Positions 26,740 through 28,632 of a stretch of DNA of 64,000 nt are shown here, piece by piece. The stretch is from Granulicella aggregans. GTDB taxonomy: Bacteria; Acidobacteriota; Terriglobia; Terriglobales; Acidobacteriaceae. The notes beneath the pieces are model-generated. The model saw only the letters and a list, made by a program, of their open reading frames with translations, did not search any database and was not told where the DNA came from. Position 1 is the stretch's first letter. Every line of letters starts with the position of its first letter. The stretch spans positions 1 through 64,000 of the forward strand of contig NZ_JACHIP010000007.1 in assembly GCF_014203275.1 (NCBI RefSeq). Reading direction: 5' to 3'. Position numbers and translations under genes: made by a program.

Positions 26740-27021
26740 TCAGCCCTTGCCTCCGGCTATCGACGGAATCAGCATGACTTCATCGCCATCCTTGAAGCTA
26801 TAAGCGTCGCCGCCCAGGAAGCGGATGTCCTCGTCGTTGATGTAGATGTTGATGAACCTCCGCAGCTTCCCATCGTCGCCCTTGATCTGCGTGGCAAGCG
26901 CGGGAAAAGTCTGGTCGATATCGGCAAGTAGTCCGGGCAGGTCTGAAGCAGAGGAAGCAAACTGCTTCTGTCCATCGGTGTGGCGGATGAAGGCAGTCGG
27001 AAGCACAACTTTTACTGACAT
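26740..27021 (-). CDS. CysO/HcyS-like ubiquitin-fold sulfur carrier
   Basis: 93 aa from ATG at 27021 (MSVKVVLPTAFIRHTDGQK), with AGGAGA upstream. MoaD/ThiS beta-grasp protein; RRFINIYINDEDIRFLGG and DGDEVMLIPSIAGG are strongly like mycobacterial CysO. In that family the C-terminal Gly is thiocarboxylated and donates sulfur to a PLP enzyme. Here GG (90-91) is followed by K92-G93, so two residues must be removed before activation, as for carriers processed by JAMM-type proteases; none is in this window. It lies 51 nt after the threonine-synthase-like gene in the same SAM-riboswitch-controlled unit. This points to amino-acid sulfur transfer rather than molybdopterin or thiamine synthesis. Confidence 0.85.
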   Translation of the reverse strand: MSVKVVLPTAFIRHTDGQKQFASSASDLPGLLADIDQTFPALATQIKGDDGKLRRFINIYINDEDIRFLGGDAYSFKDGDEVMLIPSIAGGKG

Positions 27022-27072
27022 TGATTCATTTCTCCTGTAGCTAAGCAAAAACACAAACATGAAACGACCGGC

Positions 27073-28350
27073 CTAAACTTCGACCAATTCGGGTTCCGGT
27101 TCGCGAACTCCGTCGAGTTCTTCGAGGTACTCCGCGAAGTCGGCAAGCCGCGGGCGAACCGCCCGATCAAACTCGTACCGGTTCGCAATCGCGTCCGTGG
27201 TCTTCAGGCCATTGCCGGTGATGCAGATCACCGTCGTCTCATCCTCGGAGATGCGGCCATCGGCGTACAACCGAGCCGCAACCGCCGTCGTCACGCCGCC
27301 CGCCGTCTCAGTGAAGATGCCCTCTGTCTCAGCCAACTCTTGAATGCCAGATGCCAACTCCACATCCGAGACATCCTCCGCCCAGCCGTTCGTCGCTGCG
27401 ATCATTTTCGCCGCAGCAGGCCCATCCGCCGGATTCCCGATTGCCAGCGACCGCGCGATCGTGTTCGGACGCTGCGGTTCGATGTAGTCAGTTCCCTGCT
27501 TTACCGCAGTTGAAATCGGCGAGCATCCCGTAGCCTGCGCTCCAAAGAACCGCACCGGCTTGTCTTCCACCAGCCCCAACGCGATCAACTCGTTGAACGC
27601 CTTGCGGATCTTGCGAATCAGCGACCCACCCGCCATCGGGCAGACCACATTGTCGGGCAGCTTCCACCCAAGCTGCTCGACGATCTCGTAGCCAACAGTC
27701 TTCGATCCCTCAGCGTAGTAAGGCCGCAGGTTCACGTTCACGAAGCCCCACTTGTAGTCGTCCGCAATCAGCGTGCAGAGCCGATTTACGTGGTCGTAGT
27801 TGCCATCGATCCGCACCAACCGCGCACCGTACACCAGCGTGTTCAGAATCTTCGCCGGCTCCAGATCTGCCGGAACAAGAATGCATGCCCTCAGTCCCAA
27901 CCGCGCAGCCTGTGCCGCCACAGAGTTCGCCAGATTCCCAGTCGACGAGCACCCCACCGTCTCAAATCCAAATGCCTGAGCATTCGCCAGCGCGACAGAC
28001 ACAACGCGGTCCTTGAAGCTCAAAGTCGGGAAGCAGACAGCATCGTTCTTGATGTACAGATTGTTCGCGCCAATGCGCTTGCCCAGCCGCTTCGCCTTGA
28101 CCAGCGGCGTAAAGCCCACTGGAAGATCCGGTTCGAAACCTGCCGGGATTGGCAGCAGCGCCTTATAACGCCAGATATTCGCAGGTCCCGCGGCGATCTT
28201 CTCGCGGGTAAACTCTGCGCGGACAGCCTCTAAATCGTAATGAACTTCAAGCGGGGCCAGGCAGTCGTCACATGCGGAAAGGGGCTGGTTGCCAAAGCTC
28301 TTGCCGCACTCATTGCACTTCAACTCATACGCCGAACAGGAATACTCCAT
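27073..28350 (-). CDS. thrC: Threonine-synthase-like PLP enzyme, SAM-riboswitch controlled
   Basis: 425-aa fold-type-II PLP enzyme. N-terminal zinc ribbon with four cysteines (CNECGK... CDDC, residues 12-30), PLP lysine in LSFKDR (about residue 114), phosphate-binding CSSTGNLANS, and the C-terminal GNGLKTTDAI element. By homology it converts O-phosphohomoserine to threonine. Its leader is an S-box SAM riboswitch and its operon partner a CysO-like sulfur carrier, which are features of methionine/homocysteine synthesis. It may therefore use O-phosphohomoserine with a protein thiocarboxylate to make homocysteine, or serve both routes. Family call is firm; the changed reaction is inference. Confidence 0.85.
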   Translation of the reverse strand: MEYSCSAYELKCNECGKSFGNQPLSACDDCLAPLEVHYDLEAVRAEFTREKIAAGPANIWRYKALLPIPAGFEPDLPVGFTPLVKAKRLGKRIGANNLYIKNDAVCFPTLSFKDRVVSVALANAQAFGFETVGCSSTGNLANSVAAQAARLGLRACILVPADLEPAKILNTLVYGARLVRIDGNYDHVNRLCTLIADDYKWGFVNVNLRPYYAEGSKTVGYEIVEQLGWKLPDNVVCPMAGGSLIRKIRKAFNELIALGLVEDKPVRFFGAQATGCSPISTAVKQGTDYIEPQRPNTIARSLAIGNPADGPAAAKMIAATNGWAEDVSDVELASGIQELAETEGIFTETAGGVTTAVAARLYADGRISEDETTVICITGNGLKTTDAIANRYEFDRAVRPRLADFAEYLEELDGVREPEPELVEV

Positions 28351-28461
28351 TGCACACTCTCTCGTGAAGGAGGGGTGCGGCTGTCTGCGACGTACTCTTT
28401 TCTGGAAGAATTACAGGAAGGAAATGCGGGGGTGCCCACCCTGGAATAGCGGCAGCGTGCT
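28351..28461 (-). promoter_or_regulatory. Leader between SAM aptamer and thrC (expression platform)
   Basis: A short hairpin GGGT-GGGC-ACCC lies at 28430-28441 just after the aptamer. No U-run follows, so I cannot tell whether control is by terminator, Rho or sequestering of the ribosome site. CCTCCTTCACGAGAGAGTG lies before the ATG. No small gene seen. Confidence 0.45.
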
Positions 28462-28573
28462 CCGAATCTCATGTTCCCTGTTTCCAGGAGAGAGTTGACA
28501 CCGGTACGCATGTTCTGTCCGGTTGTCGTGGCGTCTCAGGGCTCGTCCCTCAACCACTCTGCATGAAATTCAA
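28462..28573 (-). ncRNA. SAM riboswitch (S-box/SAM-I type)
   Basis: Read on the minus strand it follows the S-box order: P1 5' strand ATTTCAT (28563-28569), AGAGTGGTTGAGGGA, GCCC, GCCACGACAACC, P3 ACCGG/CCGGT, GGTGTCAACTC, P4 CCTG-GAAA-CAGG, and P1 3' strand ATGAGAT (28466-28472). P1 extends to about ten pairs including G-U. GTGG/CCAC closes P2. These match the consensus GAGGGAC..GCCC..GA..CC..GGCAACC and GGTGCCAAtTCC. It lies about 110 nt before thrC. SAM binding should reduce expression of thrC and the carrier gene. Confidence 0.87.
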
Positions 28574-28603
28574 ATTTGCCCGAAGGCAAACTGGAATGAA
28601 TCT

Positions 28604-28632
28604 GTTGTATCACGCGTAATTTTTGAATGCAA
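28604..28632 (-). promoter_or_regulatory. Promoter of the SAM-riboswitch/thrC unit
   Basis: TTGCAT (28627-28632), 17-bp spacer, TACAAC (28604-28609) on the minus strand. Predicted start about 24 nt before the aptamer P1 stem, which fits a riboswitch leader. Confidence 0.6.

Follow-up and report, generated by a model that had tools for sequence, protein, structure and literature searches.

A SAM-riboswitch-controlled MetM/MetO-like gene pair in Granulicella aggregans predicted to synthesise homocysteine

In Mycobacterium tuberculosis, CysM uses the thiocarboxylate of the carrier protein CysO, and the protease Mec+ releases cysteine from CysO. Relatives of threonine synthase can accept O-phosphoserine as well, as in the case of cysteate synthase. 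In Wolinella succinogenes a protein thiocarboxylate reportedly donates the sulfur for homocysteine in the MetY/HcyS/HcyD/HcyF system of Krishnamoorthy and Begley (2011), the carrier being trimmed by a JAMM-type protease. In Streptomyces metO is said to follow metM, and MetO to form the thiocarboxylate that acts as sulfur donor (work of Hasebe et al. from 2024). MetM of Streptomyces albulus, the gene of which stands behind a SAM riboswitch, is described as a novel homocysteine synthase acting on O-phosphohomoserine (Hasebe et al. 2024, Appl Environ Microbiol 90:e01247-24, as cited in PMC12172450). The same source gives a ThrC of Microcystis that is 51.6% identical to MetM and is adjoined by a metO-like gene, ascribes threonine synthase and threonine deaminase activity to this homologue and doubts that the homologue works as a MetM in vivo (PMC12172450). 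As of 2018, at least one route to homocysteine was still considered undiscovered, and Aquifex, Pyrolobus and Acidimicrobium are named as lacking a known one (PMC5764234). We found no report of a MetM/MetO pair in Acidobacteriota in the openly licensed literature, a scope outside which the survey of Hasebe et al. 2024 falls.

The window analysed here (the whole stretch of 64,000 nucleotides, from the acidobacterium Granulicella aggregans) carries a unit of comparable composition, with the following features:

28466 to 28569, minus strand: SAM-I (S-box) riboswitch aptamer in the leader of the unit (RF00162, full length)
28351 to 28465, minus strand: leader from the aptamer to the start codon (terminator scan and folding)
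27073 to 28350, minus strand: metM-like gene for a threonine-synthase-family PLP enzyme of 425 aa, predicted to be an O-phosphohomoserine-dependent homocysteine synthase (Pfam, NCBIfam, clade and pocket columns)
26740 to 27021, minus strand: metO-like gene for a CysO/ThiS/MoaD-like sulfur carrier of 93 aa (Pfam and structure match)

The S-box that the sequence-only reading had placed upstream of the enzyme gene was recovered on the same strand by the RF00162 covariance model (E 5.4e-14; 68.9 bits, where the gathering score is 44.4), and no further RF00162 match was found in the genome of 7.3 Mb to which the window belongs. That this sole match lies directly upstream of the unit was counted in favour of a SAM-controlled MetM/MetO pair. 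In the leader the terminator scan turned up a single weak stem of five pairs (28439-28426) but no terminator bearing a distinct run of T, and control of the unit by translation rather than by termination is therefore more likely, as far as can be judged from the leader sequence. In the whole region scanned, 4 terminator-like sites were found (2.7 expected) and 0 promoter sites (1.0 expected), and the aptamer and leader together fold no better than shuffled sequences (z 0.09).

Relatives of the unit were collected in two ways. A search of 247 Acidobacteriota genomes (enzyme matches at E 1e-70 or better) gave 61 matching genomes, 60 of which were counted as MetM family after removal of the row G034 (37% identity), which in the tree forms a long branch outside the MetM clade; 50 regions of the 61 genomes were taken, with flanks of up to 3 kb, leaving out 10 close relatives and the window's own region. 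A wider scan was limited to the 80 best out of at least 584 relatives and so covers part of their spread; 81 further loci were used.

The window enzyme is indeed related to threonine synthase, as had been read from the sequence: it belongs to the PALP family of PLP enzymes (PF00291, 2e-66), it scores above the cut-off of the NCBIfam thrC model TIGR00260 (274.4 bits, cut-off 167.1) and its best solved relative is the threonine synthase of T. thermophilus (1uim, 2.2e-45). All members of our family alignment (16/16) match the same model at E 1e-40 or better, so that the thrC model fails to separate MetM from ThrC. A clear separation was found in the tree, built from 45 of the 129 MetM rows, 28 ThrC rows (27 and that of T. 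thermophilus) and two other rows, in which the 45 MetM rows form one clade that is split from the 28 ThrC rows with 100/100 support. The window enzyme shares 44.7-87.5% identity with the rest of the MetM rows, as against 26.8-33.8% with the 27 ThrC rows and 35.0% with the T. thermophilus enzyme. Comparison of the active sites, which the sequence-only reading had proposed as a check, pointed the same way: window positions 140, 207, 209 and 212 (aligned with T88, S155, N157 and R160 of T. thermophilus) are L, N, R and Y in 129/129 MetM rows and T, S, N and R in 27/27 ThrC rows. In threonine synthase, several of the residues in these four columns are presumably in contact with the phosphate of the substrate. 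The PLP lysine (K113) is present in 128 of the 129 MetM rows, the remaining one having a gap at this position; all 129-row counts exclude L095 and L096 (both shorter than 350 aa) and L097. By these sequence comparisons the enzyme belongs to a clade of its own, apart from canonical ThrC. A riboswitch in front of an ordinary thrC was ruled out by the separate clade and the four replaced pocket residues. The N-terminal CxxC...CxxC cysteines are replaced in 4 of the 129 MetM rows, including that of the Microcystis group, and one more row is truncated.

The carrier gene starts 51 nt after the stop of the enzyme gene. Its product was assigned to the ThiS family (3.6e-10) with 3dwg_C as its best solved relative (3.6e-20), and its place as the next gene on the same strand bears out the CysO-like carrier recognised earlier. 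The 3dwg_C entry is labelled '9.5 kDa culture filtrate antigen' and we take it to be CysO of M. tuberculosis.

The same arrangement was found in many relatives. RF00162 matches upstream of the unit in 26 of 49 Acidobacteriota loci and has no match in the other 23 (two of the 49 lack upstream sequence). A riboswitch model made from 22 riboswitches of the set (that of the window and 21 others), which recovers its own members when rerun on the set, finds 21 riboswitches in the 81 further loci (the wider scan being that of the 80 best out of at least 584 relatives), namely in 15/22 Terriglobia-type loci, 6/11 loci of other groups and 0/48 cyanobacterial loci. A downstream carrier gene on the same strand was present in 99 of 130 loci, the scan of the 80 best out of at least 584 relatives included (in three of these at a distance of 2.3-4 kb), and in 46 of the 48 cyanobacterial loci of that scan; no carrier gene was found within the stretch taken in 26 of the 49 Acidobacteriota loci. 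The presence of the carrier in 99/130 loci and the recurrence of upstream SAM-I riboswitches imply that the arrangement in the window is not due to chance.

Other neighbours were identified with tblastn, using queries partly drawn from the same loci (each of which finds itself), and examples were classed by Pfam/NCBIfam. In the 130 loci, again including the scan of the 80 best out of at least 584 relatives, these were aspartokinase (18), ThiF (11), homoserine kinase (11), homoserine dehydrogenase (11), sulfite reductase (9), tetrapyrrole methylase (7), ThrC (6), cysteine desulfurase (5), JAMM (2), MetY (1) and MetX (0). A deltaproteobacterial metagenome-assembled genome combines in one unit (L160 7797-13014) a riboswitch, MetM, MetO fused to a NIL domain (PF09383, 9.1e-14), two cysteine synthases (one of CysK and one of CysM type, with models over cut-off), JAMM and ThiF. 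MetM, MetO, ThiF, homoserine kinase and aspartokinase form a row of genes in L178, and MetM, MetO and homoserine kinase follow one another in L124, the homoserine kinase scoring over cut-off in both, and in the actinomycete Nonomuraea (L181) the order is S-box, MetM (52.6% identity) and MetO. The neighbours from the homoserine pathway and from sulfur activation point to O-phosphohomoserine as the substrate and to a thiocarboxylated carrier as the sulfur donor. We also observed, in the Neomarinimicrobiota genome of L178, a MetY-like match (38%) that lies upstream of MetM at a distance of 6.4 kb, and, at other loci, a borderline SAM-II match (RF00521, 36.3 versus 36 bits, L065 5211-5285) before a short-chain-dehydrogenase-like gene that precedes MetM, and an Acido-Lenti-1 RNA (RF01687, 52.8 bits, L091 1030-1075) near a MetM unit.

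Another line of evidence came from the distribution of MetM and of the enzymes of other homocysteine routes, for which thresholds of E 1e-40 (MetX), E 1e-60 (MetY), E 1e-20 (MetA, PF04204) and E 1e-60 (canonical ThrC) were used. MetX was found in 57, MetA in 20 and MetY in 71 of the 247 Acidobacteriota genomes. MetX or MetA is present in 6/60 MetM genomes versus 71/187 others (Fisher p 2.3e-5, the relatedness of the genomes being ignored), a combined signal that stems from MetX (3/60 versus 54/187); MetA by itself does not differ significantly (3/60 versus 17/187, p 0.42). Canonical ThrC was found in 52 of the 60 MetM genomes, the other 8 giving no match at E 1e-60. All 13 other congeners searched have MetM and gave no match for MetX, MetY or MetA, and four genomes of the taxonomic family to which the window belongs (G007, G073, G121 and G171) carry MetX and MetY without MetM; a further one (G210) gave no match for MetM, MetX, MetY or MetA. 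In 30 further MetM genomes, hand-picked from the 81 loci (1 Edaphobacter, 20 cyanobacteria and 9 others), a separate ThrC was present in 30/30, MetA in 0/30 and MetX in 5/30; four of these five are cyanobacterial, including the Microcystis one. A Synechococcus elongatus control genome gave a MetA-family match, so that MetA is not absent from all cyanobacteria. With no MetX or MetA match in 54/60 Acidobacteriota MetM genomes and in 16/20 of the cyanobacterial genomes tested, the MetM family appears to fill apparent gaps in methionine synthesis. Besides MetM, the Microcystis genome (G264, locus L170) contains MetX and a canonical ThrC encoded separately. Among plasmid records 34 matched; of those listed, one exceeds 50% identity (Nonomuraea, 53.1%) and the other 29 lie at 30.7-35.8%.

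The genome of the window itself was searched for related genes. The sequence-only reading had suggested looking for a second thrC, and three threonine-synthase-like genes were found, one of them a canonical thrC that overlaps thrB (L002) and is separate from the window enzyme gene; the possibility that the window gene is the only thrC was thereby ruled out. The third such gene lies at L003 1435-2697 (PRK08197, 509.5 bits). The same reading was to fall if the window gene were the sole thrC and metB or metY were present: the gene is not the sole thrC, and metX and metY were both found. On the window's own contig (C7:83991-86422), metY (PRK08248 homocysteine synthase, 729.9 versus 726 bits) overlaps metX, with no Rfam match near the two genes. 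Among the 14 congeners with MetM, the window genome alone also has metX-metY, which was possibly acquired, and the presence of these genes means that the MetM/MetO pair need not be essential in this genome. A JAMM protease gene, the presence of which had likewise been put forward for checking, was found in a second operon (L019 11784-14839, contig C2) of the CysM-CysO type, encoding a cysteine-synthase-like enzyme (best NCBIfam score 325.5, under the cysKM cut-off of 344.15), the JAMM protease, a carrier that ends in IAGGCCCNL and is 32% identical to the window carrier, and a ThiF-rhodanese protein.

The window carrier ends in IAGGKG, with Lys-Gly after the Gly-Gly, and the latter becomes terminal only if this tail is trimmed. 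Such an extension past Gly-Gly was found in 30/32 carriers of the Terriglobia group, the window's included (22 of the 32 come from the scan of the 80 best out of at least 584 relatives, in which 20/22 Terriglobia-type loci have tailed carriers), and trimming by a protease is therefore predicted. The 23 carrier-bearing Acidobacteriota loci of the phylum search comprise 10 with tailed carriers, 9 of which are from the window's own taxonomic family, and 13 with carriers that end at Gly-Gly, as do the cyanobacterial carriers examined. Tails of 17-33 residues past Gly-Gly occur in L054, L098, L104 and L105, and those of L054 and L105 are cysteine-rich (CCSYCGQEEC). A JAMM (PF14464) match was found in 10/10 genomes with tailed carriers versus 7/13 without tails (p 0.019), and in 53/60 MetM genomes versus 61/187 others. 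The JAMM search gave no match in the other 7 of the 60 MetM genomes, so JAMM is not obligatory everywhere. MetM-less genomes of the window's taxonomic family have JAMM as well and the window's JAMM lies within the CysM-CysO-type operon, and for these reasons an involvement of JAMM in MetO maturation is suggestive only. We propose, as an idea for which the case is evenly balanced, that in Terriglobia and in certain members of other phyla the carrier would be a pro-MetO from which 1 to 80 residues (once a NIL domain) are cut by JAMM before thiocarboxylation, and that one JAMM and one E1 would serve both the cysteine and the homocysteine carriers.

The unit is thus very probably a MetM/MetO pair for homocysteine synthesis under feedback by SAM, a reading that we base on sequence. 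High SAM would turn the unit off through the S-box, judging from the class of the aptamer. MetO would be made as a precursor from which a JAMM protease removes Lys-Gly, exposing Gly-Gly, and the ThiF-rhodanese E1, probably supplied by the operon of the CysM-JAMM-CysO-E1 type, would adenylate the carrier C-terminus and convert it into the thiocarboxylate, as homology suggests. MetM, which has kept K113 and carries L140, N207, R209 and Y212, is predicted to eliminate phosphate from O-phosphohomoserine, after which attack by the thiocarboxylate would yield a carrier-homocysteine adduct or homocysteine; by analogy with the action of Mec+ on CysO, JAMM may free the homocysteine. Threonine would come from the separate ThrC encoded beside ThrB. 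The formation of homocysteine from O-phosphohomoserine and the carrier, which the sequence-only reading had put forward, is supported by the clade, the pocket columns, the operon partners and the complementarity with MetX/MetA, and the step from O-phosphohomoserine to homocysteine is the one cited for MetM of S. albulus (PMC12172450).

Three other explanations were weighed against a SAM-controlled MetM/MetO pair. The enzyme could make threonine as an additional synthase, or be a threonine synthase/deaminase, and stand behind a SAM riboswitch by chance, as its score over the NCBIfam thrC cut-off and the synthase and deaminase activities given for the Microcystis homologue (PMC12172450) would allow; we consider this improbable given the canonical ThrC with ThrB in the same genome, the separate ThrC in all 30 other picked MetM genomes (Microcystis included), the replacement of four pocket residues without exception and the carrier beside the enzyme in 99/130 loci (the scan of the 80 best out of at least 584 relatives included). 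Even less probable is a cysteine synthase of the CysM/CysO kind that uses O-phosphoserine. The resemblance of the carrier to CysO and a weak match of the enzyme to cysteate synthase (47.7 bits versus a cut-off of 324.9) speak for it, and it is countered by the SAM control of the unit, by the homoserine kinase, homoserine dehydrogenase and aspartokinase genes that lie near the unit in relatives and by the operon elsewhere that has its own cysteine-synthase-like enzyme, JAMM, carrier and E1; with a CysM-CysO-type operon at another place in the genome, the identity as cysteine synthase was rejected.

The least probable of the three is a homocysteine synthase that uses free sulfide, with the carrier working in another pathway. 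It would fit the 26/49 Acidobacteriota loci without a carrier within reach, and is opposed by the same-strand carrier in 99/130 loci from several phyla (the scan of the 80 best out of at least 584 relatives included) and by the E1 genes that in some loci lie within the same unit as MetM and the carrier.

If the MetM/MetO assignment holds, a family that is scored as threonine synthase by the NCBI model is indicated by the present comparison to serve the homocysteine step of methionine synthesis, and the separate ThrC in the Microcystis-group genome bears on the published claim of threonine synthase activity for the Microcystis homologue. The tails of the carriers, together with a JAMM and an E1 that may be shared, pose a concrete question on the maturation of bacterial ubiquitin-like carriers, and processing by JAMM would, if true, be an undescribed step of the MetM/MetO route that couples cysteine and methionine synthesis.

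The different known systems resemble the window unit in different respects. Canonical ThrC (TIGR00260) shares homology and the PLP lysine with the window enzyme, which differs in its separate clade, its four replaced pocket residues, its carrier partner and its SAM control. MetY of W. succinogenes belongs to PF01053, unlike the window enzyme (PF00291), and the PF01053 genes of the window genome lie elsewhere. The CysM/CysO/Mec+ system of M. tuberculosis is similar in its carrier (3dwg_C) and in the logic of a carrier thiocarboxylate, and the window genome has an operon of the CysM-JAMM-carrier-E1 type elsewhere; the window enzyme, however, is of the threonine-synthase and not the cysteine-synthase branch, and is under SAM control. 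The closest likeness is to MetM/MetO of S. albulus, with its threonine-synthase-like homocysteine synthase and a SAM riboswitch before metM (PMC12172450), to which the window is tied through the intermediates L170 of the Microcystis group (54% identical to the window enzyme) and L181 of Nonomuraea. Compared with that system, the window has an acidobacterial host, carrier residues past Gly-Gly and metX-metY in addition, and the JAMM and E1 of its genome are encoded in another operon, together with a pair of the CysM/CysO type. The window pair is mainly a well-supported further member of the MetM/MetO pathway already described in Streptomyces in 2024 (as cited in PMC12172450); it is unusual in that its carrier has a tail, in that JAMM and E1 may be shared with a cysteine pathway, and in that this one congener has metX-metY beside it.
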